Below are positions 33,633-64,000 of a stretch of 64,000 nt of DNA, piece after piece. Position numbers and translations under genes: made by a program. Within the stretch, counting starts at the first letter, position 1, and each line of letters begins with the position of its first letter. The notes beneath the pieces were generated by a model. The model ran no database searches. It saw only the letters and a list, made by a program, of their open reading frames with translations, and was not told where the DNA came from. The stretch comes from Persicaria tinctoria (lineage: Eukaryota; Streptophyta; Magnoliopsida; Caryophyllales; Polygonaceae), in assembly GCA_037127255.1 (NCBI GenBank), contig JBANSL010000019.1, positions 18,933,001 through 18,997,000 of the forward strand. The letters run 5' to 3'.

Positions 33633-34601
33633 GGTACTAAATACCACAATTCCAAAAAACTTTGCAAAAATGCCGGCATTTTGGGAAAATTTGCAAAAAT
33701 GCCATATTTCCCTAAAAATTGCAAAAATGTCAAGGTAAAACCCCCCCCAACACCGGCTATCCCATGTTTTATTGGAAAAAAAAAAGAAAAAGAAATTAGA
33801 GGCATAATTGCCTAGTAGGAGAGAGACAGGACAAGAAGGAGAAATATGGGGGGGGGGGGGTTAGTAAATGGAAATCCAATCACACCTCTCTCTCCCGTTT
33901 CAAACCATACCAATAGCAAAGAGAGAGAGAGAGAGAGGGCAGTTTCTTCATCGGCAGTTGCAGAGACGCCGCTTCGAGAGAGGAACAGCAAAGGAGAGAG
34001 AGCGGGCAAGTCCACCGTCGTCGGAAAGTACACAGCAGCCACGACCGCCGACGAAATAGAGAACATGTACGCCCTATCAGTCTTACTCTTCTCCCTTTGG
34101 TGGTACTGTGCGCAGGTGTGGGTCGGGGAAGCAGTGGGTGAAGGGGTTAGGGCAATGGTGGCCTGAATGGTGGGTCTGGGTGGTGGTTTTCGTGTTTGGA
34201 GAATGGTGGGTGGTGGTGGAATGGGTGGTTTTCGGGTATGGAAAGGAGAAATTAGTGGTTAGGGTTTCCACATGGGTGACAGTGGTTTTCGAAATGGGTT
34301 AGGGCAACGGTCGGGGAACTATGGATATGAGCAATTGGTGGTTTGAGGTTCGAATTGGGTGACAGGGGTTTGAAATTGGGTGACAGGGGTTTCCATTTTG
34401 GAGAGAAGGGTTCCGAAATTTGTTGTGGTAGGCGGAAAAGGGGAAATGACGAGATGTGGAAATTGGGATATATGGATGTCGTAGGTGGCCGATTGAAGGA
34501 GGTTTGAGGTATTGGTTATATGCTTCCGATTCATAAGGGGTGACATGGGTTTCACCTTGAGTGACAGGGGTATAGTGACATGAGTTTGTCTGTTAGGTGA
34601 C
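33633..34601 (+). mobile_element. Left end of VANDAL/Kaonashi-like MULE, with VANC-like leader
   Basis: The end carries three spaced TTTGCAAAAATGCC-type words (about 33660-33735) and GGTACTAAATACC. A similar inverted arrangement is seen at the very end of the window (about 63950-64000). A CT/GA-rich leader follows (33900-34065), resembling that at 60560-60730 in the second copy, and then a probable GT donor near 34065. The rest is leader-intron sequence with seven GTGACA words between 34276 and the LTR junction. Confidence 0.6.
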
Positions 34602-36552
34602 TGTTGTAGGAGGAAATCGAGTATGAAATATAACAAAATAAATCAAACCAGATTCTGCCCACGCAAATAATTACAAGACCTCCTTCTGATGTAGCAGCGG
34701 GAAGTCAGGATCGATCCACGAGGAAGCGTGTCAGCGGATCCTAGGCAACAGAGAAATCTCACAGAAGTCGACAACAAGGTCCTAGATGTCGAGTACAACA
34801 ACTCGACAGAAGATCGGACAGTCGAACACAGCACAGCAGCAAGCACAGGTTTAGTCGATCTCGACAAGAGCCTACTCGAGATCGAGTAAGGTCTTCGTCG
34901 ACGTCGGGTTGTCTTGGTCGAGTTCCTGCACACAGAAGCTACAACGACTTGGGTCGAAGATCAGTAACTCGAGATCGAGTAGTGCTAGTCGATCTCGAGG
35001 AAGACAGAAACTAAAACGAAAGAAAATAAAAACAAATGCTTTGGGGTTCGACTTAAACTGTATGAAAAGGATTTCCAAGATTGGGGTTTGCAACAACAAT
35101 AACCAAGCATGCATAAGGCAGAACTAAACAGATAATCATGTGAATCGCATCAAAGGGCCAAGCTTTCGCCTTTTCCAACAATTAGACAACTCTTTCAAGA
35201 AACCCTAATTGTCTCTACTGATTTTATGTTTACAATCCAAGTTGTTAGCATGAACCTCTATTAGATGGGTAATAAACACATAACAAGTAGTAGATGCTCA
35301 AAATAGGATAAAAGTCGGATCTTTACCTCAAACGCGCATGACTATCGTCGGGCTCGCCCCAATCCTAGAAGTGGGTGGACTACTCACGCTTCATTGCAAC
35401 TTCAGACATTGGTTGATGAAAAGAAACTAATTGCATTAAACCAAACTGTAGAAAGTACAAACCGAACAAAGCCAACTTGCTCTCGCTCCTTTGCTCCACT
35501 CGGCCTCCCTTTCTCTCTCTACTACTACTTCTCCTACTGAAATTGAATGACTAGAAATCAGCCCCATGGGCTTTATTTATAGGCTTCTAAACCTTGCTAT
35601 TCAAGGATAGAAATCTCTATCTATATCTAAAACTATATCTAAAAGCTTAATGATAAATAAAAGCAACAACATAATTAAATCTAAAAAAGGGAATTATATC
35701 TAAAGTCTTCAAGTGGATAAATCTCTCTTCTTCATGATAGATCTTGATAAAATCGGATAGAACTCGGCAATCTTCGGCTCCAAGGAATCCCAATCCGAGT
35801 AGGACAACTCACAACGCGTTACGCGGCTTCTGGAAAGTTCCTCGATCTCGAGTAAGTCTCCTCGATCTCGAGTAAGTCTCCTCGATCTCGAGTAGAACTG
35901 ACGTCGACTTGGCTGGCTCGGCGTCTCGGGTTGCTGGTCCTCGACAGGGCTCGGAGATGGCTCCTAGGCTTGGTCGATCTCGAGGACCTTACTCGATCTC
36001 GAGTAAAGGTGGCTCGTCGACTAGTGTGCTCGGCAGTGTCGGGTAGATCTTCTCGACATGCTCGGATATGGGCATGGCTTTGTCGACATCGAGGAAGGTT
36101 CTCGACATCGAGTTGTGGTGTCCACTCGCTAGGTCGGTTAGTCTCTCCTCGGCATCCTCGGACATGCTCTCCTTGACTCCGGGCATGGTCTTCGTGGCTT
36201 TTTCGACATCGAGTAGGAAACTCGATCTCGAGTAAAGGCTTGGAGTCGAGTTCTTCGTCTTCAGCTTCTTGACATGGGCTCCTCGAACAGTGCAGGTGTC
36301 TAGGCATGATTTGTCGAGATCGACTAGGTTTAGTCGACATCGAGTAGACTTGGGCCTCCGTCCTTGCTTCTTGGTTTCCCCCCGAAATGACTCCATATTC
36401 TGCAATATTAAACAGAAACTTATGTAGATCTCCATTTCTGACAAATAAGCATATACTACATAAATTCGACATATTCCCAACCCGAAATATGCAAAATGTA
36501 AATAATATGGAACTAAAATATGCATAAAGACATGGCTACTTTGGAGACATCA
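34602..36552 (-). repeat. 3' LTR of outer element
   Basis: 1951 bp. It differs in length from its partner (1931 bp) exactly by one extra copy of a 20-bp TCGATCTCGAG-containing repeat near 35832-35892. The minus-strand TATA box TATAAATA lies at 35574-35581. The ends read TG...CA on +. Confidence 0.93.
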
Positions 36553-36575
36553 AATCACCCCATACTTAGACTTGC
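36553..36575 (-). other. Polypurine tract of outer element
   Basis: On the minus strand AAGTATGGGGTGATT abuts the 3' LTR start TGATGTCTCC. It would prime plus-strand DNA synthesis. Confidence 0.75.
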
Positions 36576-38667
36576 TTATCCTCAAGCAATAACCAAACAA
36601 TAACCAAGACCTACAACACATCCTTCAAGTCTTCGCCTTTTGTCAAAAGCAACATCTCAAGTAGTAGCAATGTAAGACAAGTGAATTTAATGTCATCACA
36701 CATATATGAGCGATCCATAGGCATAGGCAATATAAATCCAACCTCACAGGAACAATGTGTTTACACTCAGCTCTCAATGCGTTTAGGCTATGAAGATCAA
36801 CTCTCAACTCGATTCCATATACAATCTCATAAACATTGCAATTTAAATATAAATCCACTTCGCAACCAATTATGAGAATGCAACAAGAATTATCAGGAGG
36901 ACTTCGCTCAATAGAAGCCTTCAAAGAAGATTCCATTCGGCGGGGTTGTAATGGGGCTTGGTAAGAAATATAAGGGTATGGAATTATTTGGCCATGTGGT
37001 GCTTAATAAAATTCGGGAATCAAGACTCCTAAATCTTCAACACAACTCAACCAAACCATAACTCTCAATCATAGGCATCAACCAAACTCTCCAATTTATC
37101 TCAATGAAGTATGTAACCTTTCAAACTTCCTCAACCTCTCGAAAGTATGTATCTTGCGAATAATGAAAGAAATAAGATAAATTTGGCTCATGCACTTTGT
37201 TCTCAAACATATATACTTTTTCTCTTCTTTTTTTCGATTTTTTTTAAAACGAAAATAACATAAAATAACACTGGTGCATTTATAGGGTGAGCCAAAAATC
37301 CTTTTACATAATATGCATAGCAAGATAAAAATATAAAACCAACCCATATCTTAATAAATTCAAAAATCCTCCTTTCTTGAAATGAAACACAAGCTCATTC
37401 ATCCACAAACCATTATTTCAACCAACTCTAAGTCTTGATTCCCAAATGGGGGTCAGGCTCAATTTGACTAAGGATAATTTTGTGGAGTTTATAATAAAAG
37501 TCTCAGGCTAATGTTCTGGTTTCAAGGAGGGATAATGCATGGTAGGTAAAGAGAGGATAAAATTGGCTTAAAAGGTGCCTCCATCATTTAATTCTCATTT
37601 ACATAAACATAAAAATGCATTGGCTTTGAATAACTATCACAACATTTAGAGATGCATAGGAAGAGTAAATACACTCAAGAAAGCAGAGGGATTTTTTATG
37701 TTCTCCCTATAAGGCCAAAATTCTCACTGGGACAATTTTTGTTGGATTTTAACCTTTAGCTTAGGATCATATGTGCTCAATTTCATCACAAGTTCACAAT
37801 CCATATAAAAACAATTTTGAGGACTTAGGCTAAACCTTCCAAACATGCCATAGGATTTACATGATCAAGTCAATCATTATTTATCATCATAGGACATCTA
37901 AGTTAGGGTATAAAAACTAAAACAATGCAAAAAATTTAAACATGCAAATTTTTTTTTCTTTTTTCGACATTTTCTATTATTTTATTTTATTTTTATATTT
38001 TTTTTAATGCAACTAAAAACAAGACTAAAATATGACAAAAGACTAAAATGCATAAAATTTTAAACATGAATGCATAACATAAAAATTAAAATTTCACCAT
38101 GTAAAACCAAAAGCAAGACTAAAAATATATAATAATAATGAGCTCTTCCCCCACCCCATACTTAAAATTTACAGTGTCCCCACTGTATAAAATCAAACAA
38201 AAACAAGAGTAAAGGAAGGAACTCACAGGATAACACATCGAGGAGGAAAACAGTTCAGGTCGAGTAAAAAATCTTTGTCGATCTCGAGTAGTGCAACTCG
38301 ATCTCGAGGAGGTTTCTGCGTCCAGTGGCTTCTGAAGTCGAGGAGCTTCTGGTGGCTTAGTCGATATCGAGTTGGCCTACTCGAGATCGACAAGTTTCTG
38401 GGCTCCTCCTCCTTGTTGTTGTTGACTTGGCCTTCGTCGATTCTGACTGTTTTTCAGGGACTTCTTATTCCACTTTTCGCGATCCTTATATGCTTGCCGA
38501 CCTAAAAGTGTTAGATTGCACACAAAAACAAGACTATCCACATAAAGTATTCTAAAAGACATAAAAACCAAAACCAAAAACCAAAAAGTTTAAAAGTTCC
38601 AAAATTCATAAAGTTTATATACATGCTCTAGATTTTAGAGTCGCTAGGCCGACTTCTCCGTTTGCGC
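36576..38667 (-). other. Non-coding internal part of outer element
   Basis: About 2.1 kb of AT-rich sequence lies where an autonomous Ty3 element would have reverse transcriptase and integrase. I see no polymerase or integrase motif in any frame. Confidence 0.7.
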
Positions 38668-40657
38668 TCAAGGACCATTAGTGTGGGGCCCGCTCATGCT
38701 TGGCCCTTCTCCTGGACCATCTAGGTCCTGATTGTAGTATGCGAGCTCAGCTGATAGGTGGTTGCTTGCATAATCTTCCTTCTCTTTCTCCTTCTTTCTT
38801 TCAGCTCTTAGTTTCCGCAGATTCTCTCGCCACGGGGCCTTACCTCCCCTTAAATTATTGATAACTTTCTTTATGGACTGAGGGGGAGTAGAATTCATAC
38901 CTGAACTTACCTTTTCGGACCCAAAACAAAAATCTTTGGGCTTGGGGCTAGTTGATGTCGAGTACTGCTGGTCGACCTCGAGTACAGGGACCCCATACTT
39001 AGGATCTGAGCAAGTCATTGGCTCAGCAGAGGAAGTCGACGTCGACAAAGGCTTGTCGAGATCGAGTAGAAGGGTTGTCGAGATCGAGGATGCTTGGTCG
39101 ATCTCGAGGACAGTGCTGGTGCTTTCCTCCGCTGATTGCTTGGTCCCGTGGTTGCTGATGCTTTTTACCTCCAGCTATGAAATTTCCTCCTTTGCAGGAC
39201 CAAAAGAGAAATCTAAAACCTCGTCGCCTATGGTGAATGTGAGCGATCGATTCTTAACACTAATCTTGGCATCTGCAGTAGCTAAGAATGGTCTACCAAG
39301 AATAATAGGGCTAGTAGGATCTTCAGCACAATCTATAATAAGGAAATCTGCTGGAACAAAGAATTTACCAACCCGGACGGGGACATTCTCAACTATACCT
39401 GTAGGGATGACCACTGTATTGTTTGCCATGTATAGCTTGGCATTCACAGGTTCTATGCATCCTATCTTTACCTTCCGCCAGATTGATAAGGGCATGATGC
39501 GCACACTTGCTCCTAAATCACACAGAGACTCATATTTATATTGTCCAAAACCCCTAGTAACAGAAAACTTACCAGGGTCAGGTCTCTTTTCAGGGAAGTG
39601 GAGTACTTTGCATTCGCCTGCGATCTCTGAGATAGATCGCTTCTTGCTCAGGATTTCCTTCAGAAATTTGACATATCCAGGCATCTCTTGCAGGGCTTCT
39701 GTAAAAGGAATAGAGACATTAAGTTCTTGCAGCATATTAACAAAACGGTTAAACCTACCTGCAGTGGGATCTTTCTGTGCCTTGGAAGGAAAAGGCAGTG
39801 GGTTTTTCTGCTTCGGAGCCAGATCAGACGTCGGAGGTATTGCACAGTCGTCGACCTCGTCTTGTTTTTCCTCGATCTCGACCAGTGGCTCCTTGACATC
39901 GAGTTGGGTTGTCGACCTCGAGTTGCTGGGCTGCGCAGTGGAGTCCGAGCTGGGCTTCTGGGCTTGGTCGAGGAAAGTTTTGTCGAGATCGAGTACGCTC
40001 TCCTCAAGATCGAGTAGATTTTGTTCTGGGTCGAGTTGCTGCTCTGCCTTGTTCTGATGTTTCCCGACCTCTGGCTCGTGTAATTGATGCCCACTTCCGA
40101 GTTTGATAGTTGCGACGTGTCTGGTTTTCCCCTTAGGATTTGGTTCTGTTTGCCCAGGGAGTTGTCCGGATGGTCGTGGGATCTGTGCAGCGATTTGACC
40201 CATCTGGGTCTCTATTCCCCTTTTCCAGATGTCCAGTTCTCCAAATTTTGTAGTGATGTTCTAGAACTGGTTGTTGATTGTGCCCTGATTTCGACGCATC
40301 TCCTCAAGAATGAGCTGCAGATCATCCTTCTTTTGATCCCTTTCTGGATGTCTTGGAGCTCTGTATGGTGGGGGGTTCCTAGGAGGACCTTGGTTCCATT
40401 GTGGTTGATAGAACCTTTGATCTCCCATGTAGCGATTGGGATCCCCAGCGTAGGCTACCTCTTAATATGCCTCTGCCATCCTGACTTGCTCAGTGTGTGG
40501 GCACTCAGTAGTGGTGTGCCGCTGTGATCCGCATTCGATGCAAGGCTGGTTGACAGACAGATATTTGACTTGCTTGAGGAGCTTGCGATTCTGGTCTCTA
40601 TAGAACTGCTCCCTGACATCTGGGTCAATCTCCTTTGCTGGCTCATAGAGTGGCATA
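38668..40657 (-). pseudogene. gag zinc knuckle, retropepsin and C-terminal tail
   Basis: One reading frame continues from the interrupted gag. It holds a CX2CX4HX4C nucleic-acid-binding knuckle (CIEC...H...C, about 40530-40570), a low-complexity linker rich in D/L/E and S/T encoded by TCGA-rich repeats, and a retropepsin-like domain with active site CDLGAS followed by IILGRPFLAT (about 39250-39560). A basic C-terminal tail (RAERKKEKEKE) follows. Stops break the frame at 40462 (TAA), near 40261 (TAG) and at 39175 (TAG). All are compatible with C-to-T changes from CAA/CAG, but that is inference. Confidence 0.8.
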
Positions 40658-40658
40658 G

Positions 40659-42640
40659 TGTAAAGGCTCAGATTTTTAAATTCTAATTTCTTAGAAAAAG
40701 GAAAATCAAAATGAATTTAAAAGCGGAATTTAACGGAAAACTCGCTAACTCGGATTCTAGAACTAATAAAACGGATTTTCGGCAAAAAAAAAAATATAAT
40801 AATAATAATAATAACAATATTAAATAAAATTAAAAACTAAATTGGCATGGGAATATTGATCCTCGGATTATTTGAAACCTTTTAAAATGAGTTCCGGCAT
40901 GATTTTAATGGAATTTTCCGACGGATTTCAATTTCGCTACCTTGATTTGAGAATTTGAAATATGAGCGGGATTTTACCGGATAAATTAATTCGATTTAAA
41001 AGTTCACGTCGAGATAGGGTCGAGGGAGCGAGTTTTTGGGTTTAATTTTGGGAAATTTCAAATTCAATACTTTGCAGATCACTAGAAAAGTTTTCTTCCT
41101 CTCTTACACTTCTGAATCTTAGCAGGAAAAGGAGTCAATAACAACTCCTCCCTTCCTCTTTGGTGTAAGCACTATCACACCCATCATTCTCCCACCCACA
41201 ATTTCTTCACCATTTTAGGAATAAAGTCAAACAATGCCTTGCTGTGGTGCAGCCAGCCCACGCCACTGCACACTCTGCACTCCCTCTTCTTTTGTCTTCC
41301 AGCCTGCATCCCCACCTTTTATTTCAAGCTCTTCAGACCCATTCTCACTTCACACTCAAGCTCTTCCTCCCTTGTTTGTCTCGCCAACAACACCAACCCA
41401 AAAGCACTCCCTCCCCTCTTTTCTCCCATGTCTTCTGCAGTAAAACAAACCAACACCTCCTTGATCCGCCTCTGCTCGCCAGCTCCACTGCTTCCTCACC
41501 GTTCACCGCAACAATGACCACCAGCACCGCTGTCGTCGACGGCCACCCCGACCTCGCACCTTGCCTCCGTTTCTGAGCAGTAGCAGCACCACCCTTGTAC
41601 CACCGTCTCCCTCCATCTCAAAGCACATCGAGGGCCCTGTTTTCCCCTCGAAGATGAACGCCGAGCTTCTAAGCGCTTCCACCACCTTCCGAGTAGAGCA
41701 GCCGCATCTTCCTCACCTCCGACGTCCGAGCCAGGTACCGCTAGGAGCACTACCGTCGAGCCCCTTCTTCTCCTCTTCTCCCCTGTTTCCGGCCCCCGCA
41801 GCGGTAAGCCTCACTCCTTCTCCTTCCGCTCAAAACCAATGTAAAGCTTCGCCTTTTGACTAAGATCTTCACCCAGGACCAAGGACGCATCCCTGAGCCT
41901 CCGATGACCTCAAATTAAAGCTTTCCGAGCGACGTTTCCCGGCGAGTCGACTCCCTCGGTGAGCTCTTCCTTCCTCCTCCTCCTTTTCCTTCCTATTCTT
42001 GTGTGTGTCTGGTAGTCGGTGTCGTTTAGTCATCGTCGTCCTCGGAGTCGGGGTCTGGGTTACCGCCGGCCAGTCTTTCCTCTCCCTCCGTCACTTTTTC
42101 GAGCAGAAGCCTGCTCTTCCTCTAGTCTTTCAATCATGGAGGGAAGAAGAAGACCAGGCGGGCCCTCCCCGAGTCCCCAGTCCACAGGTCTTGGCACGTC
42201 ACCCTGGCCTACTTTTTTTTTTTTTTAATATCTCCAATCCGACTTCTATTGAAATGGGAGAATGGAATGCTTCTTTGGGCCTGATTCTTTGGGCCGATCT
42301 GCTTGTTTTAAAGAGGGATTCTTTGGCTTCACTGAATTATTAATGGTTTAGATTTGAATATTTGACTTACGTTTTGACCCGGCTCTGCCCTGGTACCCCT
42401 TTTGTATTGTACTTTACTTCCGCTTTTGTATGACTATGAGTTTTCTACGCTTAGACTTACGGCAGGTACAAGGGACTTCCCCGGGGATTCCAACGATCCC
42501 TTGAAATTTGGGTCTGAAATCCCACTTGAAAGCGTTAGTTAGGATTTCAAACCTTCAACCTGTACTCGGGGCGCAAGATCCTAACAAGGGGTTTCATCCC
42601 TAGAAACGTAACCCGGGAATCATAATCCCGGGCCGTTACA
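40659..42640 (+). repeat. 5' LTR of inner element
   Basis: 1982 bp. The first 1670 bp are near-identical to the 3' LTR. From about 42329 to 42575 the sequence is unrelated to its partner, and the last 65 bp match again. It ends CCGTTACA. Confidence 0.9.
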
Positions 42641-45600
42641 AAGTTGGTATCAGAGCCGAGGTTTTGCAAACCGAGTATGATAGGTTGAAGTGGTTTTGAA
42701 AATGGCCCAAGGTTTTCAAATGACTTTTCAAAAAGTTTTAGAAAGGGAAAAATGAATTTAATATGGCTAACTCAAATGGATTAAATATGAACTTGACTCA
42801 ATAAATCAGGTAATCCAAGAAAGGGAAACGACAGGGTAGTAAAGGCGCTAGACCATCCCTATTGGATGTAGTTGGGAACGGGTAGGCAAAATACTAGCTT
42901 TCTTTTACAGGCGGGGTTTGAAGACTCCAAGGAGCCCGAGGGTTGGAGTAGCTGGGGTAAGGGGGCCGTGAGGTTATTGCCCCTCCGGTTAGCCGTCCCT
43001 CGAAGGACGACATAGATCGTCTCTGTTATTATATGCGTTATATCCAACTGGGCCTGAGGGCGATCCTCCTCGAAGAAGATCATAATAATTCCATTGATTG
43101 TTTCCATGTTGAGTGTTATTGTGCTTAAGGTAGAAAACTAGTTGGTATGCCTTAACTTGATCATGTAGATGTGTGAACGGGATAGCGGGCGGGAACCCTG
43201 TCCTTATGTAGTCGGAATTCCCGTCTTGTTGAAATAACTCTTCCCTAATTCAAACCCTTTGATGATTCTGACTCCGTCATCCGTCCCAGCAAAACATTTA
43301 TGCATGTTAGCAAGGGTCGAAGAGCATCCGCTCTCCCCGTTTTGAGTCCTGTTTTGTATCCCACCACCAATGCTTTTATCGAGTCTCGTACCTTAGGTTG
43401 GTGTCTTCCACGGGAAAATTTGGGTCGGTCAACTAGCTACTTCCGGGGGTGTGTCGAATATGGGAAATTCATGAGTGTTTTAGGGAGGGTGATCAATGAA
43501 ACAATTTCGAGTTAGAAGTGATTTGTCTTATGGAGTTATCCTTCTCGATTCTTATATTGGTCAACTGTGTCTTCTTACCACGAGAGTCTAAACACAAATT
43601 CTACCCTCTCCTCTTGGAAACAGTGTGAATGTCCTTGTGTCATACCGAGTGAGTCATACTAGTGTCCCAAGGGGAACCGGGGTGATGAGTCAGTGATTTC
43701 CCTTGAGGAATTCTGTTAGGTTATGATAGTAGCCCATCTTGTGATTGCATGACATAATGCATTGATATATTTCAGCATGACTTGTCTGATATCTTGCATG
43801 ATTGCAATTGTGAATGAGTATATGTGCCGTGTGTATGAATTTCTATGATTACTGTCTTCCCATGAATTAGGTTCATGATAGTGTGGTTAACCCTCGTTGT
43901 ATGATCAATATATGAGATGAATTCCTTAGCATGTTAAGTTGATCAAATTGAACATCGTTGACTATATACTTGCTTAATGAGTGTTGGTAGTATCATGTAG
44001 GATATATATCTCCTAATTATAGACCATCGTGCAATTATGTGCCATACTTATCATGCTACATTTACATGGTTGTATTTGATGTGATAGTTGTTATGCCCAA
44101 ATGACTTCACCCTATCCCCTGACATGATTATTCGAGTGCGTCTTATCATGCTTACCTTGAACCTACATTGTTTTGAGCTGCTTATGTGTACACTTAAAAT
44201 GAGTAATGAATCATACATTTAGGATATCCTATAATGCTCGCTATGTCATATATAACTTATGCTGCATATGTCTACTGTCGGTTCGTGCATACACGATCTT
44301 AATATGTCAAGCATGATTAGTGCATGAGATGATAAGTTTTAGCATGTTCTGCGTGCACGTAAAGTTGATTATATGAACATGTTATGAATGCATAAGATGT
44401 TATTCCTTTTAATAGGTACATGCTAGTGTGGAATAATATGATTGAGATATTTTGTAATTGCTACGTGTATGCTTTCCGCACTTGTAACCTCATAGAATAC
44501 CCTAAGGGCATTGTTGTAACTCTCGAGTTCGCGTCTTGTTTTGAGTCTCGTCATCTCTAGTCCTGGTCTATGTCTGAATCTTTAAGGAAGTTGTGTTGTC
44601 TCCCCTTGCCCCCTATCTCCGTGACTTCTAATCCCTCGCGATCCCCTTGATGGACGTCGACATAGAAGAGAAAACGAGCGATCGAATGGCACCAGAGTGG
44701 CCCAACGGAAGTGTGGTGGGCCCATGGCCCATGGACCCTAGGATCGATATCACCAAAGGAAGGACGCCCTTAGAAGATGGTGGTTGCAGACGTGATCCTC
44801 CTAGATGACTCAAGGAATGACGTTCTTCATCCGAATCGTGATCTCTCCTATGCGATCTAGAATCGGTGTCGTGCGATAGGCTTGGAACTAACTAAATTGA
44901 TGTGTGATGACTGATAAGCTGAACTGGCAGTGAATGATTACTTGACTAACTTATGTCTGTGATGATGTGCCTATATGCTTAAGTGTACTGACCTGCTAGT
45001 AAATCGACTATGGGTTATATATGTGGTGGTGTATTCTTCTTGGGAATGAGTCGAGTGTTTTCTTCGGTGAGACAGGTCGGAAAGTAGCAGGTAGATTGAG
45101 GCCTTCAGATTGGGTCAGTGGTTGTGTGAGGTGGGGTGCAGGAAAGATGTGTCAGCAAAAGTAGAGCCGAGTGAGTTGGGATTTGTCTGGAATAGCAGTC
45201 GGCGAGTATAGTTGAGCTTCCAGGTAGGTTTTAGGTGAGGAGTGGAGTTAGTATTGCGAGATTCCGAGGGAAAGGTCTTCGTTAGAGGTAGTGTAGGGTG
45301 ATAGCATGTGCGAGTAGTGTAGTTCTAGAGGTGGATGAGTGAGTTAAGAGTAGATCGGATGGATTCTTGAGAGGAAGTGTTGTGAGACGATTGGTGTGCG
45401 AAGGAAGGTGTCTAGATAGTTAGGAGCGGATCTTGGGCGATGATGAGGATGATTGGTTAGAGAATGTCTAAGAAGTCGTAGAATTTGGAACTAGGTTTTA
45501 TGTGCGATGATTGGGAGCGGTGTTGGGAAAAGGATGAGGTTGAGGAATTGCTAAGGAAGAGTAGTGTGAGGTTGCTTGGGAAATTATCGATCTCGGATAT

Positions 45601-50638: not shown

Positions 50639-50731
50639 CATAGATGGTGCTGGCCTGGCATAGGAGTTCTCCTCATAGTTTGCAGTAGACCCATATTTAT
50701 TGTCATAATTGGTGAGCTTGTCTGGCACACC

Positions 50732-51433
50732 CTAGGCGTCAGTTGGTGGCATCGTCAGATACTCATAGCGAGTATACTGGTTGATTCTGTCCTTAGTGAC
50801 TTGATCAAGAGAGTTGAAGAAGATCTCCTGAATGACGTAGGGTGACTGTCCATGAGTAGGCCAAGATCGCATCAGTTCTTTGTAGCGTTCCCATGCCTTT
50901 GCTAGCGGCTCCCCATGCTTCTGTTTGAAGGCGGTGATCTTCTGGCGGAGGAGTGCTGTCTTGGCGGGTGGGAAGAATTTATTCAGAAGCTCTTGCTCTA
51001 CTTGGGCCCATGTTGTGAGTGATCTTGGTTTCAGCCCTTCAAGCCACTTCAGTGCAGGCCCAGCGAGAGACCAGCGAAAAGCCTTCATCTTGACATATTC
51101 CAGAGTTGTACCTTCAGCAAGAGTACGACACATGTCAGAAAAATTGGTAATATGTTCAAGAGGACACTCATTAAATTTGCCATAAAAAGCATTATTTTTA
51201 AGCTCTATAAGAAATTGAGTGCGAATTTCAAAAGAGTTTTCAGGGATTAGAATCGCCGATTTAGGCACGACGAGAGTTGGATGCATATAATCCTCTGCAA
51301 TAGTTGGATATTGGGCAAGCTCAGCTTCTGCTTGTTCCCTTGCTGCTTTCTCAGCGGCGATAGCAGCATCTTTAGTGGCCAGTTCCCTTGTAAGCCTTGT
51401 AATCAGCTGTTCCTGCGTCTCAGCAGCCGCCAT
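50732..51433 (-). pseudogene. gag (N-terminal part) of outer element
   Basis: A Retrotrans_gag-type capsid protein begins MAAAETQEQL at 51433. The frame stays open upstream into the LTR, but the Met just downstream of the primer-binding site is the likelier start. A coiled-coil opening (alternating A/E/K, residues 1-45) precedes the capsid domain, which contains MKAFRWSLAGPALKWLEGL and WAQVEQELLNKFFP. It ends in a TAG at 50732. Past that stop the same frame runs to the CATAG target site and continues across the inner insertion at 40657. The protein would coat the element's RNA. Confidence 0.85.
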
Positions 51434-51542
51434 GGCTCTTTGTAGTTTAGCTCTAATGTGGTTGACCAGAAAGGCGCATACACCTGTAAAGTAACTCAAA
51501 GAAAACGTGAGATTTTTACTACCTAAGGCGCGAATGATTGCT

Positions 51543-51561
51543 TCCCCGGCAACGGTGCCAA
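51543..51561 (-). other. Primer-binding-like site of outer element
   Basis: On the minus strand, TTGGCACCGTTGCCGGGG lies three bases inside the 5' LTR. This is a common arrangement in plant Ty3-type elements. Confidence 0.75.
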
Positions 51562-51563
51562 TT

Positions 51564-53494: not shown

Positions 53495-53562
53495 GTGACA
53501 GAGGGAGATGAATATAATTTGTAAACTGACTTTGTTCGTCTGATCGAAATTGCAGGAAACAA

Positions 53563-56500
53563 ATGGCGAGGACGAAGAATCTGAGGTCGAAGAAGCGGGA
53601 GCCCGAATACCTAGTCCCGGAAGAGAGGCACTTCCGGGCCCGGGTGAACCAGGGCTCAAGACTGTCGATGCTCAACAACATCGATGACTATGCCGACGCA
53701 GGTGACTGGCAGAAACTCCTTGACTCGCAGCTGGGTGGGGTTGTGCAGTTGGCACACCGCGTCAAATTTTCTTCACAAATGGTGCATTATGCACTACAAC
53801 GCCAGCTTGAGACCGATAAGGAGTGGGAGACCTGGTACAAGATAAAAAGGAAGCTCCAGAGGTTCTCCCTCAAGGAGTTTGCTTTAGTTACTGGGCTGCG
53901 GTGCAGCCAACCAAGAGTGAGGGAGATGGAGGACGACGAGAAAGCTATCAAGGACTTCTTTGGAAACGAGAGGATGACGGTGGGTGACCTGGAGAGCGAA
54001 CTGAAGAACTCATTGTTGGTGGTGCGGAGCCCGCGAAGACGACTCAAGCTAGTGCTTCTCTACATTGTGGAAGGCGTGTTGCTAGGGGAGGAACAAAAGA
54101 AGGGGTTGCGGAGCTGGATCGTCAGGTTGGTGGAGAATGTGGATCGGTTTTTGGCATTCCCATGGGGGCGGGTCATTTATGCTGCAACACACGTCTCGCT
54201 GGACGGCACCGTAAAGCACCGGGAGGCTAAGTTGAAGGCAGAAGATTGCAAGAAGTGCAATGGTTATGGGCTGATGGGTTATCCGCTATCCTTTCAGGTA
54301 ACCTTCTCGACCATACCCATGATCATTTTGTAATTTATATGCTGAAAATGTAATAATTTGAGTGGGGATGCGGTGCAGATTTGGTTGTTGGAATCCATGC
54401 CAAAATCGGGGGTCCGGTTTGCGTCGAAGGTGTCGACCACGACTTTCCCTCGTTGCCTGAGAAGGACCCTCAAAGACGAGAACCTAGCTTATGCTGATAT
54501 ATCCAACCGCACTGAAGCAGAGGGAGAGGCGGCCATTGAGATTGACGATAACCTAATACTCATACTGGAGGAGGCTGAGCTGGAGTTGATGGATGGATGT
54601 GTCTACGAGGATGAGAAGTCCGACCCCCTATTCGACAGCGTATTGGCACCCTTCCTGAGCCATTTCGAAGCCCCTGGTGGGAGCTCCTCAAAGACGAGAA
54701 GAGGAGGCAATGAGAAGGACGGCTGGGTGGAAGACAATGCCAAGACTCTGGAAGCAGTTATGGACAAGCTTGAGACAATGTCAACAGGGATGGAGAAGAT
54801 AGATGAACATGTACGCAATTAATTCCCATATATTCGTTTTGTGGAGAGTCTGAAGAACTGTGGTGACAAGGGTAAATGGACTCCTGACACGTGAAATTGG
54901 ACAGGTGACACGTAATGTAGATATTGAACGAATCTGCTATGAAATTGAGGGGGGCCTAGTCTGATATGTGTTTGTTTTGAAGTGAATTAGGTGACCTTAG
55001 TCTGATATGAAGTATGAATTTGCATTTGTTGGGTATTGATTACTCATCACAGGTGTCACGTAATAAAATGCTTGTGTTGAGTTTTGTCACCTTATGGTGA
55101 TATGAAGTACGAATTTGTTGACCTGCAGCTGAAATTGTTGGAGGTGGCTGTGACTGAGCTGCGAGATGGTAAAGGTAAGGGGACGGCCGGGCAAGAAACA
55201 ACCCATAAAGAACAAGCCGCCGATGAGAAGGAACGGGATGAGTTTGTTGAAAGCTATGAGAATATAAGTCTGTTTTTGCGTGACTTGCGTTTCGATGTTG
55301 AGTCGTGATTGAAATCGGGGATCCAATATCAAACGTTAATTTGGTTTTTTCAGGTCGAACTTGATGATTTGATTAAGTCAATTGCGCCCGAAGGCGGTGA
55401 GACGACCCTTGGTGGACAAGGTGGTAAGGTAAGTTGTGGGTAAACATCACAAGAATTTATCGATCCAGCGTGACAGGAAGAATGTAGCTGTGTGACATGA
55501 TTTGTTATGTTAAGTGACACTGGAAAGTTAGAGGCCTAATTGAATGTTGATTTCAATTGCAGTTTGGAGCTGTTGTTGAGAAGGGAACTGAAGTGGATGA
55601 TGGCGGGGATAAGCACGCTGAAGTTCAAACTGTAAAGGCAAGGGATGGGGGGCCAGGAGAGAGCAAGGAGGTAGGTGATGATGTCGGGGACAAGCAAGAT
55701 GAAGTTGAATGTGTCAAGGCAGGGGATGTGTGGGGGGGGGGGGGGGGGGAGAAAAGACCAAGGAGGTAAGGTTTATTTATCAAATAAAGGTGACAAGGAA
55801 AATTTTCTCTGTGACATGAACGTTTATGACAAGTGAAACGAAAATTTTTCAGACCAAGGCAGGGGACAAGCAAGCTGATGACGGGGACAAGCTAGCTGAA
55901 GGTGAATCCCTCAAGGCAGGGGATGGGGTGGCAGGAGAGAGCAAGGATGTAAGTTTTTTCTATCAGTTAATGGTGACAGGGACAATGTAGTTGTACGACA
56001 TGAGTGTATCTGTTATGTGACAAGGGATAGTGTCAACCTTAGCTGAAGTTTGATATCTTTGCATTTGGGAGAGGCTGGTGTCAAGGGGTCTGGTCCTGAT
56101 GACGGGGGAAAGAAAATTGAAGGTGATGATAGGGCGAAGCCTCGGGTAGCACAGGTGTATGCATCTAAGGGGGTGAAGAAGATGAGGAAGGGTGAGAGGA
56201 GTTGGCTCCCCCGTCCAAGAAACCGCGAACCCAGAAGGTAGCCAGTGTTCCTGCTGATGCCGTTGAGCTAGGAATTGTGTTCGCGACGGACAAGGACGTC
56301 ATGACAAGTTGGCTCGCAAGGTACGTAACTTATGTGTCTTACTCTCGAATAGACGACGAAGGTAGATAGTTGAACGTCCACTATACCTAACAGAAACTTA
56401 CCGTGCAGTGGGGACGTGGAGGTGCGCAAGTCACCTTGCGGTGTGGATGTGACGAAGGAGTTACTCAACTGCCTGAAGAAACCCCAAGCTTGGTTTGGCA

Positions 56501-57294
56501 CAGTGGTATGAACACGTGTCACCTATCAAATTTTACGTGTCAGGATTTTGGATTGTAATTGTGGTTCACTTTATGCAGGAGATGGATGAGTGTTGCTACC
56601 TTCTGCGCAAAGCGGTTGCAGACAGGGCGGCTGACATTGGCAGTCGAGCCTTCGTTGTGGATACGTGCTTGACGGGAATTTATCTACCACGGGAATGGAA
56701 GGAGTACAGCGCCAGCCCCGAAGCGTACGAGCCTAGTGATGCATTGCTGGCGTACTTAGATGGCCGGTCCCCGAAGCCGTTGGGAAGACCATGGTCAGGT
56801 ACGGACCTCATCCTCCTCCCCTTGAACGTGAGGAACAAACATTGGGTTGCGCTTGCAATCGATCTGAAGGTGTGGGAGGTCAGGGTGTATGACTGCGACG
56901 TCCACATCGTGACAGAACGCCAGCTTCATCCCCTCTTAATGCCGGTGACAAGCCTCATCCCTGTCGTCATGCGGGCACACCCCGATCTGAAGGTGAAGTA
57001 TGCGGATAAGGTCCCCACGCCGTTTGCCATTCGTCGGGACAGGAGCCTTCCAGAGAACAAGCTAAGGTAAGTTGGTTCACATGGTTCAATTTCGTTTCAT
57101 TGGATGTGGAATCGGTGTCCGCGTTCTGACCGATTGTTCCCTATTGCAATGGTGGTTGTGGCCCGTACACCATTAGATTCATGCAGCTCCTGCTGGAGAC
57201 CGCCCCGACCTTCGATGGATTGGACGACACGTACATTGAGGCATACCGCCAGATGCTAGCTGTTGGGGTATTCCATGGTCGACTCGGATGCTAG
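53563..57294 (+). pseudogene. VANC-like protein: DUF1985 plus Ulp1 cysteine protease
   Basis: A multi-exon gene of a Mutator-like element. Exon 2 opens after ATTGCAG (53555) with the start codon at 53563 and runs to 54297. Exon 3 is 54379-54810, ending in a coiled-coil stretch. Several short acidic, repetitive exons follow (about 55129-56240; limits uncertain), then 56579-57066 and 57150-57294. DUF1985 is recognised by RFSLKEFALVTGLRC and LVLLYIVEGVLLG. The C-terminal Ulp1 (C48) domain shows the catalytic His in NKHWVALAID, Asp in VYDCD, and Cys in GGCGPY of the last exon. Such proteins are known from VANDAL/Kaonashi MULEs; related VANC proteins counter silencing of their own element. The leader intron carries an 18.9 kb insertion and the last intron ends in AA instead of AG, so a normal product is doubtful. 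Confidence 0.75.
54811..56050 (+). repeat. GTGACA-rich introns of the VANC-like gene
   Basis: GTGACA or TGTCAC occurs at 54863, 54905, 55054, 55085, 55470, 55492, 55514, 55790, 55811, 55973 and 56017, almost all in presumed introns. Several are arranged as a triad: GTGACAGG, then GTGACATGA, then GTGACA. Confidence 0.8.
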
Positions 57295-57513
57295 ACTTTG
57301 GAGTGTCTCATGAATTTTTGTTGTGAACACTTGATTCCAATCAGAACACCCTCCTGTAATAGTTGAAGTAGAACATTTGGATATTTTGCGAAACTTGGTA
57401 GTTGTCGATTGTGAACATTTGGATATTTTAGGTATGCGGACATGTATTTTGTTAAACTTGGCAGTGTAGGTATATGTATCGATCCAATTTGGTGACAAGG
57501 TATATGTTGTTAC

Positions 57514-60235
57514 TGTTGGACAAAAATGCGCAAATAATCGTACAACACATTTTATTTGGTTTTTAATATTTGAGTTCGACCCCTTTTGGTTATCCTCTTG
57601 ATTCCAAGTCGTATCGATACCAAGATTTTGTTGGTTTTGGTGATTTGGGCTGCACCCGAATTTCAGCGGGTTGCCTACGTATCTCTTGGAAGAGAATCAA
57701 GCCTCACGTAGTTCCTAGTGTTTGAGTTTGTGTGTTTTAACATCTTAAAGATTTTCATGCATCATTGGATCGTATTAGGACCCACCTTCTCGGAAGGGTA
57801 GCCCTAACATAAATCACACTATCATATGCATGAGATTTTCTCATGTATCACCCGAATAAATTGAGCAAACCTTCTCGGAAGGGTTTCCCAACTCAACGGC
57901 TATCACTTACACGGAAAATCATGTGTATTTAATTTGACGTTAATTTTAACCTCATTTTCAATTTTAAAGTGAATTTAGAGGTTAACGACTGTACCCGACA
58001 TATTTTGAGATTTAATATCGGGTTACCTACGTAGCCGTTTTACGGCGTCAAGTCTTTACGTAGTTCTTTTCTTTTGAAACCGTTTGATTTAATTTGTAAC
58101 CGGTGACTGAATTCGGCGTATTTAGAATTTTATACCGAATTTTCTACGTAACTCGTAAAAGAGTATCAAGTCTATACGTAGTTCTGAATAGAAACCAAGC
58201 TTGATTTGGTTTTAAAAGTGTGATCGTTTGAAGATCGGGATTGAACTCGACGAGCTCATAGCTTTATGTCAAGCTTCCTACATACCCATTTGAACGGGAT
58301 CAAATCTTATGTAGTTCTTTTCGGCGAAATATGAGCGTTTGGGAAAATCTAATGTAAGGTTTTGGCTTTGAATTTATTAAAAGCTAAATTTTCCGACCCA
58401 CTAAACTTTAATTGTGCCAACTTTAATAAATTTGTGCCAACTTTAATTTTCATATTTTAGTGGGCAAATTGTGCAATTAAGGACATTTTTTTTTATCAAG
58501 CCAAAAACCAATGCCGTATGCATATTTGCATGTGTCATACATGTGCATATGATTTGAAAACAAGTTCCTGCAAATTCAAATTAGATGTTTTATGGGCTTA
58601 AGCCCAAATTCCAGCTCATGAATTCAACACTTTAATGAGGCCAAGCCCACATTTTGCTAGTTCAACCCATAACTCGGTATGCCTGATTTTAATTTCAATT
58701 TGATTTTAATTTCAATTTCAACCCTTTTTTCTATCGGCAAATCAATTCTACGGTATTGATTTTTTTTTAACCCTAACAATTCCCCCACCAGCTGGTACAC
58801 TCTTATCAGAGAGAACCTCGCCGCTTAGCCCTTGACCCGAGTCAGGAACAGCGACCGCTAATCGGGGATTGAAGACGCCCTCCTCTGCCGGCTTTGGCGG
58901 CGCTCCCAGTCCATCCCGGCGCGATTAAGGCAGGACCGGCCGCAGCGGAGCATAGCAGCGCCCTTGCTGGGCACCATTCTCGGACCTAGCAGCGGACGGG
59001 CGGGGCTGTAGGAAGGAAAACCCGTCGATTCAGGCAAGGCCTAAGGACCGAGAACCGACGGAGTGCCTTTGAAACCCGACTCAAGGGGAGATGAAAGAGT
59101 TCTGACAATTGAAGATTTAGACTCCGTATGTCAGATGAGTTTATAAATCTGATTTTTTTTCTCTTCTTTCTCCTTCTTCCCCTCTTGTTCTTCTTCTTTA
59201 ATTTTCTTTTACTTTTCGGAACCAATTTGGCCGTCGTTTTGAATAACAGCCCTGCCGATTAGTTTGGATGTAAATAGCTTATTTCAGCCTTAGGTGACTC
59301 AACTGAAATCTGTTGGTTTGATTTTCCTTCTTGCAATGGATGAAAATCTTTGTTGTAATTTATATGAGCCTTTCTCAAATAAAGTTGAAATAGGCAGCAT
59401 AAATTTAAGTTGGTTTCTGTCTGGACTTTGATCCTTTTTTTTTTTTTTTCGTGAAACCCCTTATTTTGTTTGGAATTTGGAGAAACTGTCATCCTTGACC
59501 AGTCACCATGGCCCTCAATTTGGACTCCTTGGGCAGCATATCGACCCTGTAGATCAACCCCGTAGGATTGGATGTAGCGGTGAAACTCTCAATTTCAAAC
59601 CGACTACGAATTTTGGCGCTAGGTGAAACTGTCAATTTCGAACCTACAACGCCCCATCGATCTTCATTATATCTACCTGCCAGAAATAAAAACGCTGGGA
59701 ACAGATGAGATTTGGGTTTCTACCTTCTTCTAGGAAGTTGAGGGGTAAAAATTCTCTCTGTTGTTTTTTCCTATCTCTTTTTGCACTCTGAACGATCTTT
59801 CTTTGTATTTCTGTATTTCTGAAAGCAGTCAGATTAACAAGTAACAACCAACCGATGGGTTGATTCCCCTTTTCTATTTATAGGGGAATGAATAACAGTT
59901 TCCTTTTCATTTGTAAATAACTGCCCACTTTGGCTTATTTTCTCAAAACGTGGGCAATGGGGAATGTAACTGCATAACTTCTTTTTGACACAGTTATTAT
60001 GAAAATAATGGACCCCTTAAATAAAATAAATGAGTCATGTCCACACTCACTTTGGGCCTCAAATAATCAGCTTTCATTCATGGCCCAATTTTTTGCATTC
60101 CCTATCCTTTATTTGATTTTGAACATTAACTTCATGAATTAATCATAACCATAACTTATAATTAATTCCATAAAATTTTATACTTGATCACGAATTTTCC
60201 TTTGACCAAATATGCTGAAAATTTACCCTCAAACA
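57514..60235. mobile_element. Solo LTR
   Basis: 2722 bp running from TGTTGGAC to CTCAAACA (TG...CA), with the 5-bp duplication GTTAC at 57509-57513 and 60236-60240. No internal primer-binding site or coding region was seen, so it is read as a solo LTR left by LTR-LTR recombination. It contains phrases such as GGTTGCCTACGTA that recur within it. A TATA-like CTATTTATAGGGG lies near 59873. Confidence 0.75.
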
Positions 60236-61243
60236 GTTACATGACACGAGGATTAAAAGGGGTGACATGGGTCATTTAGACTATACGTAGGAATTTGAGA
60301 GAGTGAATAGTGACACGAAAAAATCTGTGAGGTGACACGTGCATGCAAAGACGTGACCCGATACTGAGACAAAACGACAATAGAAAAGGAATCTTTCAGG
60401 GTAGCAGTTGTTTGCACAGTTACTTTGACCTACTTTAAAAAATAGAAAAAAAGAAAAATCAAATATTCTCTCTCTCGAAAATAAAAGGTAAAGAAAAGAA
60501 AAGAAAAAGTAACTTTCGCCAACTTGCATTCATTGCAGTTGGGGAATAAAACTACCACCACAAGGGAAAGAGAGAGAGAGAGAGTGAATATTAATAGAGG
60601 GCAAGAAGGGAGGCGGTTGTGAATTGAAGGGAAAGAGGAGAGCAGCAGTTCGGCCGCTGTTAACATACGACATAGGACAAGGGAGGAAGACGCCGGAGAA
60701 GCCCGTACCGGAGAGGAAGGCGCCGGAAAACAGGTACAACTCAATTGATTCTTGAAATCCGTCTCCCTTCTCTGCTACTCTGAATCTTCACTTAATTTGC
60801 AATCTTCCCCACTTAATTTGCAATCTTCCATTATTTCGTTCAAATGCATGCAATTTGGGAATGGAGAAAATTCGGAAATTGGGGATTTGGGTTAACGGTG
60901 ATGTGGGGAATTGAGGAATACGGGGAAATAGAGATCTGGGGTAAAAGGGGTATGAGGATCTGAGGAATTGACAGAGAAGAGCGAGGGAGATTAAAGATGA
61001 GCGTGGGAGGGTTGCGGGTCCTTTAACCCAGAATGTGAGAGTGGAGAATAACCCCTGTCATAAACGGGTACTGTAGGAGTATTGGGAGAAGGCAACTGAC
61101 ATTCATGACATGGCTTATTCTGTTGGGTGACAAGGGTTACCCCCTAAGGTGACATGGGCACTTTCTCGTGAAACACTCGCAGACAGATTTACTAAGTAGG
61201 GGGTGAATTTGTCTGGATATTGATTATGTTCATGTCCACCTAA
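60236..61243 (+). other. Second VANC-like leader and first intron
   Basis: A GA-rich leader (60560-60730) with a GT donor after AACAG (about 60732) and an intron ending ATTGCAG (61250) repeat the layout of the first copy. GTGACA or close variants occur near 60262, 60310, 60331, 61105, 61127 and 61149. Confidence 0.6.
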
Positions 61244-61256
61244 TTGCAGGAAAGAC

Positions 61257-61490
61257 ATGGTTCGGTCCCAGAATTTGAGGAGGAAGGGTGTCCGGCCACC
61301 AAAGAAGGTGGAGCCACGACTCGCAGTGCCGGAGGAGAAGTATTTCCGGGGACGGGTCAACCATGGTTCGAGAGTGTCGCTGCTCGTGAACTTGGACGAC
61401 TGGGTCGACCCCGTCGATTGGGAGAAGCTGTTGCGATGCCAATTTGGGGGTATTGTGCAATTGGCAAACCGGGTTCAATTCTCGTCGCAA
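61257..61490 (+). pseudogene. Truncated head of a second VANC-like gene
   Basis: About 78 residues align with the start of the protein at 53563 (shared: VPEE, YFRGRVN, GSR, GGIVQLA, RVQFSSQ). The match breaks near 61490, exactly where transposase sequence on the other strand begins. It is a deletion junction, not a gene end. Confidence 0.75.
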
Positions 61491-63508
61491 CTACTTGAAT
61501 CTTTGGGATGCGTCCAGCTCTAACCTAGTATGTGTCACGGGGTTAGTCTGCTACAACATGTGCAAGTATGGAATAATATCTCGGTAGCTGTCTTCGTCGG
61601 TCCCATGCTTCACCTCCCTCGCTGCCAGTCGTGCCCTTCGTGCCTTCCAGTAGCTACACGATACTCCATACTCGGAATTCGTCATTTTCTGCACTTGCTC
61701 GGGAACGAGGTCCTTTTGAGTCCCGGTGAACCTGCATATAAGGGTGTCATGGTGAGTTACATTATGTGACATGTGGAATAATGTTGTGTGACATAAATAG
61801 TTGTTCGCAACTAAAGTAAGTATTACTTACTTGGTCACGAGGTTGTGTCCAATCATGTTCGACGTAGCATGTCGGCTATGGTTGTGCATCATGCTCAAGT
61901 CACATGTATGCTCCTGGACATACTGTTGGATGGACCACATAGTCGTGTGCCGGTAAGTTGACGCCCTTAACATCCACGTGCACTTGTTGTCCACACAACC
62001 AACTAAATACGTCGATTTACACGACATCTTCACTACAAACTCGAAGCACTTCTCCACTGCATTCCACTTAAGGCGACTCTGCACTTCAGCCTTCGAGGCG
62101 AACAATTGTCCCTCCGAAAGTTTTGTCAGGTTGCGTCGTGGATCCTGGGTCCGAGGCGTTGCTCTGTCCACCATAGCTTCAACGTTCTCCATCGTAGGTG
62201 GGGATGTGTTGGACCTAGGAACCCAATCTTCAAGTTCCCTCATCACCTCATCCTCAACTTCGTCCCTCTCCGTCGACACCCTCATACCCGGGTCTTCCTC
62301 AAAATCCTGCCAGTCAAAATCATCCCAAACTTCTTCCCTCTTCACTCCGGCATCGAAGTCCTCATCCTCCTCCTAACTGCTTATGTATATGACATCCAAC
62401 CCCTTATACATGTCACCTTGACATTTTACCGTGTCATCGGAAGAGGAGTCCATGTCACCCAAGTGGATAACATCTAGACCCTCACACCTGTCACCCTCAT
62501 GAATGTATCTGTCACCAGTTCCAAACCCCATGTCAGTTGCGTGCTCCTGGCTCTTCCCTATCACCCCACCCAACTGGATCAATTCCGGACCTTTACCCTT
62601 GTCACCTACACTCATAAGCTTGTCACTAGTTCCAAACCCCCAGTCAGTACCGTCCTCCTGTCTCTTCCCTATCACCTCACCCAAGTGGATCAACTCCGGA
62701 CATTTACCCTTGTCACCTTCACACATAAGCCTTTCACCAGTTCCAAAACCCATGTCAGTACGGTGATCATGGCTCTTCCCTATCACTTCACCCAAGGGGA
62801 TCAACTCCGGACCTTCAACCTTGTCACCTCCACACATATGCTTGTCACCAGATCCAAACCCCCTGTTACTTGCGTGCTCCTGGCTCTTCCTTATCACCTC
62901 ACCCAAGAGGATCACCTCCGGACCCTTACCTTTGTCACCTGCACATATATCCTTGTCACTCCTTCGAAACCCCGTGTCAACCTTGTTTTTCACCCTTATA
63001 TCGTTGCTCTTTCCTTTTGACTCGCTAACCCCTCCTCCACCATATAACCGAACATCTACAAACATAGGGTTTGGTTGTGCCTTACCTTCTTCCTCTAGGT
63101 CGTCCACCTTTTGGGAGTTACGAGGCCCACTCAAGCATTCTTCCCCGACGCCGGGTTGTGGTACTTGAAGGCTCTCTTTCACCACTGGACCAACATATAT
63201 TGCCATGGGCCATGGATGTTCCCCAGACTTCGAGTTCAGAAACTTAAAAGCCTCAAGGTCGTCATCATCACCTATCGTTATTGGATGACCCGCTTCTTCC
63301 GCCTTTGGCATATAAGACAACCGCCAATCTTTTTATGAACAATCATGGCCGACCTTGAGCCTCATCAGTTGATTCAGAGAGGCGAAGTTGATGCCCTCTT
63401 CAATGATCACATTCTTCCGCTTGGTTTCACCAGAATACACCCACCCGACACCATCGAACAAACAACGACCGTTGAAGATGAGAGTGACACATACTTTGGC
63501 GTTTTCCC
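61490..63508 (-). pseudogene. MuDR-type transposase, N-terminal part only
   Basis: The exon 63508-61831 and, after a 99-bp intron, 61731 to about 61490 encode the front half of a MULE transposase. An N-terminal domain (VTLIFNGRCL... RLSYMP) is followed by an acidic linker, five repeats of about 37 residues, the MuDR DNA-binding zinc region (FASKAEVQSRLKW... CTWMLRAS) and the start of the transposase core (YGVSCSYWKARRARL). Stops occur near 63325, at 62373 and near 61548. The frame ends around DASQRF, before the DDE catalytic domain, which is deleted. It cannot be active. It is convergent with the VANC-like gene. Confidence 0.82.
62395..62990 (-). repeat. 111-bp coding tandem repeat in transposase linker
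   Basis: About five units of 37 codons with the core GDKGKGPELIHLGEVIGKSQ. Most units carry two GTGACA words (minus strand), as GGTGACAAG coding G-D-K. Confidence 0.85.
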
Positions 63509-63920
63509 CTGCAAATGAAAAGTCGGATCAGCACCATTGTTAATGAGTATCTACTATTCGCGAAACATGAGGAGAAATAGGAGAGAAGCCTACTTATTGC
63601 ACCTGAGAATTAGGGTTTCTCATAAACCTCGGTGACACGGAAGTTAACTAACACTGACACGAACAAAGAATGCGCCTGACACGTGCTCTGCAACTGGACC
63701 TTGATGCCGATGGATTGTTCTCCAATGGTGGCCTTCTTCTCTAGCTCTCTTATCCATGGGAGGAAGAAACTGATGTCCTCTTTCCTCCTCTCCTATTATA
63801 CTTTGCAAATGGAGGGAAACCCCTTTCCCATAGGCAATCATTAGCCTCATCTCTCTCCTCTTTTTGGCGCTAAAATTTCCCACCAAAACTCATGTCCTCT
63901 CTCTCTCTCTCTCTCTCTCC
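63509..63920 (-). promoter_or_regulatory. Transposase leader region
   Basis: Upstream of the acceptor at 63509-63511 lies a presumed leader intron with GTGACA-like words (63626, 63654, 63678), then GA-rich leader sequence and a (CT)n run at 63898-63917. It mirrors the VANC-like leader at the other end of the element. Confidence 0.45.
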
Positions 63921-64000
63921 CCCTCCTTGTGAGAACCTGCAACCGACATTGCCCTTCCCTATTTTTTTTTTGCACTAATACCACCCATGTTATTTTTGCA
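63921..64000. mobile_element. Probable right end of the MULE, cut by the window
   Basis: On the minus strand the sequence starts TGCAAAAATAACATGG and GGTATTAGTGCAAAA, similar to the TTTGCAAAAATGCC words at the left end (33633-33740). The true terminus and 9-bp duplication, if any, lie beyond the window. Confidence 0.4.

Follow-up and report, generated by a model that had tools for sequence, protein, structure and literature searches.

In Arabidopsis, the proteins VANC21 and VANC6 bind short words that are densely repeated in the non-coding DNA of their own transposable elements, and methylation is lost there as a consequence (PMC5735166). In the same study, methylation is also lost with VANC6 from AT9TSD1, an element that contains the VANC6 word without being related to VANDAL (Hosaka et al., PMC5735166). 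In the literature found, anti-silencing by VANC proteins has so far been described in Arabidopsis. Here, we analyzed a stretch of 64,000 nucleotides from Persicaria tinctoria (contig JBANSL010000019.1, positions 18,933,001 to 18,997,000; "the window"). Judging from its sequence, the window is likely to contain a copy of a very numerous Mutator-like element (MULE) with a VANC-type, sequence-specific anti-silencing system reading the hexamer GTGACA. By analogy, GTGACA probably serves the element family as an address for escaping silencing. The features of the main element and of the long terminal repeat (LTR) retrotransposon nested in it are as follows.

33625-64000, no strand assigned: VANC-type MULE, recognized by its domains and by a left border common to other copies; the right end lies at or beyond the window end
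34276-34601, plus strand: leader-intron cluster with six exact GTGACA (34276-34580) plus a seventh that the LTR retrotransposon insertion interrupts; intact in other copies
53563-54297, plus strand: exon 1 of the first DUF1985 gene, a VANC21 homologue (Pfam E-value 2.3e-26; PDB 9lnj)
54811-56579, plus strand: intron-rich stretch of the first DUF1985 gene with 12 GTGACA, mostly in phased clusters
56477-57067, plus strand: Ulp1 (Peptidase_C48) part of the first DUF1985 gene (Pfam E-value 9.5e-12)
60262-61154, plus strand: second leader with five GTGACA
61257-61520, plus strand: second DUF1985 gene, of which the window copy holds exon 1 only (sharing 45 of 74 codons with exon 1 of the first gene)
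61766-61793, plus strand: two GTGACA at a distance of 22 bp, within the transposase intron
61827-63332, minus strand: N-terminal part of a MuDR-type transposase (DBD_Tnp_Mut, E-value 1.6e-7) with a 111-bp coding repeat holding 11 GTGACA
34602-53494, no strand assigned: nested LTR retrotransposon, not part of the system, with the target duplication GTGAC at 34597-34601 and 53495-53499

On both strands of the window, GTGACA occurs 107 times, compared to 26.7 ± 5.4 in 100 dinucleotide shuffles. The word is well above background in the leaders, the introns, the transposase coding repeats, and a second, shorter element to the left of the main one. The counts are 7 in the joined pre-insertion leader of 400 bp (shuffle mean 0.32), 15 at 53495-57340 (2.7), 21 at 60201-64000 (2.7), and 54 at 27831-30530 (2.3). 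It is at or below background on the host side (8 at 1-27830, shuffle mean 10.2; 1 at 30531-33627, mean 0.6), in the nested retrotransposon (1 at 34602-53494, mean 6.5), and in the spacer between 57.3 and 60.2 kb (1 at 57341-60200, mean 0.9). According to a gene model made by hand, the first DUF1985 gene has 12 words in its 1052 bp of introns, compared to 2 in the 2680 bp of its exons (p 1.3e-5). Five words are located in the second leader, two in the transposase intron (61766 and 61788), and 11 in the transposase coding repeats (62411-62954). The original prediction had claimed seven words in the leader intron, at least eleven in the later introns, further ones in the second leader and in the transposase intron and repeats, and few over the E2F/CAF1 region. 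All of this is borne out by the counts, the seventh leader word being recovered once the LTR insertion is set aside, and three words being found between 17 and 27 kb of the window. The 54 words at 28.7-30.3 kb were not on its list.

Among 1924 hexamers, GTGACA ranks third by z (31 copies, where 1.6 would correspond to the scaled count of the remaining window) and is outranked only by the simple repeat AGAGAG in its two phases. The transposase repeats and the region 57341-60200 were left out of this ranking, of the pair statistics, and of the exon/intron counts. For the compartment counts, the hexamer ranking, and the 5-of-6 offset test described below, the leader was joined with the 5-bp target duplication retained twice, and one 22-bp pair reads as 27 in this join; the leader-intron comparison, the pair and intron counts, and the copy alignments are based on a join with one copy. 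The retrotransposon that interrupts the leader is 18.9 kb long, with 39 differences between its LTRs over 1931 aligned bases (2.0%). Since its target duplication is GTGAC, the insertion hit a copy of GTGACA. The other aligned copies of the main element are free of it at this site. A further pair of direct repeats lies inside the retrotransposon (at about 40.6-42.3 and 47.5-49.2 kb).

A lack of enrichment in relatives of the element had been set beforehand as the observation by which the prediction could be refuted. Using exon 1 as the query, 5837 first-look candidates were obtained in the genome; 150 of these were scored, and all of them match, those listed being 81-100% identical. A Pfam search for DUF1985 gave 4775 first-look candidates; 150 of them were scored, each above the cut-off, and 14 control genomes yielded no candidates. 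When the exon 1 and Pfam lists were compared by eye, the two-gene layout was recognizable in at least 18 hit pairs, separated by 4.6-5.2 kb. From the exon 1 list, 13 relatives were chosen by protein similarity at roughly every twelfth rank, ignoring the word. Each of the 13 contains 12-18 GTGACA per 3.3 kb, including 6-7 in the leader, and the prediction was not refuted. In total, 195 words were counted in 42.9 kb compared to 27 for the reversed word, while ten control regions of 1.5 kb, situated 500 kb from ten relative loci, held 4 in 15 kb (0.27 per kb). Another 20 loci from contig C1 had been selected for their word arrays and, unlike the 13 protein-chosen relatives, show a bias towards GTGACA. 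Of eight loci taken for a leader-type spacer (L014-L021; L numbers denote loci of the genome), the first gene was found in seven, and L015 is the one without it; exon 1 of the L021 copy is free of stop codons. Units have been gained and lost in tandem among the copies: L019 has extra 21-bp leader units, and words are missing in L017, L018, and L020.

The conservation of the word was determined in an alignment of 14 copies (the 13 protein-chosen relatives and the window), in which mismatches were counted against the majority base. Leader words mismatch at 3 of 564 positions (0.5%), compared to 264 of 5240 (5.0%) for the other leader bases and 673 of 10287 (6.5%) for coding exon 1; when the word positions were shifted circularly, 1 of 421 shifts was as low. 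For the intron words, the values are 47 of 690 compared to 1725 of 15568 for other intron bases, and 25 of 1373 shifts were as low. Strong constraint is shown for the leader words and weaker constraint for the intron words. In an earlier set of eight copies, the leader words mismatched at 16 of 335 positions (other leader bases, 271 of 3078) and the intron words at 26 of 491 (526 of 5919; 27 of 876 shifts as low). This set is biased because seven of its copies were chosen by word arrays, and two rows of its leader alignment (L019 and L020) are partly misaligned. The two leader introns of the window align with a local score of 32 (shuffle maximum 22), which decreases to 21 when GTGACA is masked in one of them.

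The words of the main element are oriented on one strand and mostly set two helical turns apart, a feature that is new here. Of the window pairs not more than 70 bp apart, all 20 have both words in the same orientation, and nine have a distance of 21-22 bp, compared to at most six in 20000 placements that kept the cluster sizes. This pair count is the highest among the 1924 hexamers in the scanned element parts. A 5-of-6 match is located 21 or 22 bp downstream of 14 of the 31 exact words (control offset pairs: mean 0.8, maximum 4). Several clusters are triplets; at 55833, the third word is degenerate in the window (GTGAAA) and reads GTGACA in L017 and L019. In the 13 relatives, 77 of 146 close same-strand pairs are 21-22 bp apart, and opposite-strand pairs are absent. 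Across the whole assembly (1.68 Gb), the pattern GTGACA-N8-GTGACA was found 3090 times, compared to 71 times for the pattern read backwards.

The gene was predicted to be VANC-like, which agrees with the Pfam assignment to DUF1985 and with the comparison of the spliced protein to the PDB sequences, where VANC21 (9lnj/9lnk) was the sole match at E ≤ 1 (E-value 1.2e-4). A profile built from six sequences retrieved VANC21 again (6.3e-5). When the spliced protein of 470 aa was compared to a protein database, none of 7996 scored candidates reached E ≤ 0.001. An AlphaFold prediction of exon 1 alone was not used (mean predicted local distance difference test score 36.8). Exon 1 of the second DUF1985 gene gave no Pfam match on its own. 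Over 74 codons, the two genes of the window show a synonymous divergence (dS) of 1.36 and a dN/dS ratio of 0.21, values by which they are taken to be old relatives. The DBD_Tnp_Mut match is located at 61827-62372 on the minus strand, and the transposase is represented in the window by its N-terminal part only. Terminal repeats of the main element were considered and dropped: aligning its two ends as present in the window gave a score of 28, within the shuffle range, the right end being at or beyond the window end. As a separate observation, GGGGACAAG-type repeats in exons of the first gene (55598-55954) and GTGACAAG repeats in the transposase (62411-62959) both encode the peptide GDK; the word and this peptide repeat may be linked.

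Two low-ranking hits of the DUF1985 Pfam search, L053 and L054, were taken up. L054 is close to the second DUF1985 gene and 56% identical to the first, and it carries a GTGACA triplet at 2052/2074/2096. The DUF1985 gene of L053 is 38.7% identical to the first gene, and GTGACA occurs at three places in 4 kb of this locus. Instead, its sites between 2474 and 2857 read TATCCTGTCA or similar, which is TGACAGGATA on the other strand. TGTCA is positioned at 2474/2496/2517, 2641/2662/2683/2705, and 2789/2811/2832/2853. A blind scan of 5-mers downstream of the exon for distances of 21-22 bp placed TGTCA first with eight pairs (at most two in 200 shuffles). The locus has the TGACA core and the phase in common with the first family, but another fixed flank and another strand orientation with respect to the gene. 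Taken together, the constraint, the phasing, and this one diverged locus support a DUF1985 protein as the reader of GTGACA.

The second element, which contains half of the GTGACA copies of the window, has the following position.

27829-30513, no strand assigned: second element with terminal repeats and 54 GTGACA, flanked by the 9-bp target duplication ATGTTTTAA at 27820-27828 and 30514-30522

No blastn match was obtained between this element and the parts of the main element compared (E ≤ 0.1; 57341-60200 and 62401-63329 not in the set). The left ends of both elements align with a local score of 46, a value read without shuffle comparison, and their termini may be distantly akin. Forty of the words form part of a 0.9-kb minisatellite with units of 21 and 18 bp; the other 14 are found on both strands. 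When the minisatellite is aligned on another anchor string, the six word columns are 93-100% uniform. L002 and L003, two of eight loci taken by the GTGACA-N8-GTGACA pattern, are relatives of this element. Stretches at 28380-28720 recall what we take to be elongation factor 1-beta; a captured fragment of such a gene found no support from PDB sequences or Pfam and was dismissed. A third type of carrier (L011, L025, and L052) combines GTGACA repeats of other unit lengths with an Ulp1-like C-terminus, which was not named by Pfam and gave 1489 first-look candidates in the genome. L052 was considered as a DUF1985-bearing copy of this type, but no such exon could be found. The 21-22 bp phase is mostly lacking in these other carriers. 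In L024, the arrays alternate between strands (close pairs: 15 on the same and 29 on opposite strands). Seven hits of the Ulp1 C-terminus lie about 27 kb apart at G000:C7:10816999-10980083, a possible tandem amplification.

Several observations weigh against a DUF1985 protein as the reader of GTGACA. Eleven words of the window sit in the transposase coding repeats, where the encoded peptide may be their cause. The constraint on the intron words is modest in both copy sets, considering the 27 of 876 and 25 of 1373 shifts that are as low. In the minisatellite of the second element, the three columns before the word (GTG) are as uniform as the word itself, and the first-family profile found no DUF1985 exon in the three copies of the third carrier type. 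The diverged word is known from one locus, L053, where the 5-mer scan was made after the sites had been seen and a 6-mer scan gave no word above shuffles (2 compared to 2). Furthermore, the reading frame of the first DUF1985 gene seems to shift near 56.19-56.21 kb. Because of this apparent frame change and the 18.9-kb insertion in the leader, activity of the window copy is unsupported; it looks defective and is probably not functional.

A further point of this kind is that both words contain TGACA, a core that is also bound by host proteins. TALE (KNOX/BELL) homeodomain proteins bind TGACAG-type sites, leader introns are plausible enhancers, and the L053 word, which starts with TGACAGG, fits such a site. 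The arrays might therefore be host transcription factor sites driving the element in meristems, but we consider this unlikely. In the main element, the base after GTGACA is nearly evenly distributed (G 8, T 9, A 7, and C 9 of 33), unlike in TGACAG. A single host factor should also give a single flank, whereas the fixed flank differs between the families (GTGACA compared to TGACAGGATA), and GTGACA is found in later introns and in a second element as well.

Recognition by the element's own transposase, with the words as internal or subterminal repeats like those of TnpA in Spm, is quite unlikely in view of their positions. The main element has its left border at 33625 and its first GTGACA 651 bp further in (34276), the outermost words of the second element (28686 and 30340) lie outside its terminal repeats, and the word fills introns across the main element. 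It does occur in and around the transposase gene, too, and TnpA and MURA have been tied to the demethylation of their own elements (PMC10398659). That the clusters are neutral tandem repeats without a reader, common by descent, appears very improbable, although some units are evidently recent tandem copies: the units at 34359 and 34380 agree at 11 of 15 spacer bases, L019 has its extra units, duplicates of intron modules exist, and one stretch of 25 bp containing the word is present in a leader as well as in an intron. In the remaining seven pairs at 21-22 bp outside the coding repeats, however, the spacer identity is 31 of 110, the leader words mismatch ten times less than the bases around them, and the word recurs in a second element lacking blastn similarity to the main element parts compared.

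We therefore favor a DUF1985 protein as the reader of the word. As judged from VANC21 and VANC6, it would bind the GTGACA arrays, with several molecules probably docking on the same helix face; once bound, it would remove silencing marks from the elements that carry them, including ones that share little else. From the one diverged locus, a change of the word from one family to another would go along with a change of the protein, the two-turn phase staying constant. More tentatively, and with somewhat less than even confidence, we propose that one genome harbors several VANC-type families with TGACA-centered words of their own, a fixed two-turn phase, and co-changing word and protein, and that elements with little else in common have taken up the GTGACA array as a means of escaping silencing. 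With thousands of first-look DUF1985 candidates, a new word, its spacing, and a sister word, the co-evolution of word and protein becomes accessible to alignments and binding assays. GTGACA could also serve as a new short address for the demethylation of chosen plant DNA. The pairing of GTGACA and DUF1985 had been predicted to be undescribed, and we found no account of it in the open-licence literature searched, nor a description there of GTGACA as a VANC target or of anti-silencing beyond Arabidopsis.

VANDAL21 (Hiun) with VANC21 and VANDAL6 with VANC6 are comparable to the main element in that a DUF1985 protein is encoded in a MULE, a short word recurs in one orientation within introns and elsewhere in non-coding DNA, and units are gained and lost in tandem (PMC5735166). 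As with AT9TSD1 in the case of VANDAL6, the word is also found in another element, here the one at 27829-30513 (PMC5735166). The known VANC words were tried as the word of the element and rejected: in contrast to VANDAL21 and VANDAL6, they are absent or at background in the parts scanned (YAGTATTAY 0, AGTTGTCC 0, AGTTGTAC 2). A 21-22 bp phase also sets the main element apart, the terms "spacing" and "interval" being absent from the main text of PMC5735166. Binding and demethylation have been demonstrated for VANC21 and VANC6 (PMC5735166), whereas they are predicted for the main element. As in the KAONASHI (KIU) MULEs, the Ulp1 gene is opposite in strand to mudrA (PMC13317346, PMC2528002), Peptidase_C48 being on the plus and the MuDR DNA-binding domain on the minus strand of the window. 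Differences are the two DUF1985 genes in one element and the word and phase, neither of which is described in the KIU passages of these papers. Like TnpA of Spm and MURA of MuDR, the DUF1985 protein would be an element protein tied to the loss of methylation of its own element; the effect of MURA, however, is exerted at the terminal inverted repeats (PMC10398659), while GTGACA avoids the termini here. The kind of system is already known from VANDAL and VANC, and GTGACA differs from the known VANC words. New with respect to the parts of the literature searched are the preferred spacing, one word in several types of elements, the sister word, and the occurrence of such a system in a plant other than Arabidopsis.

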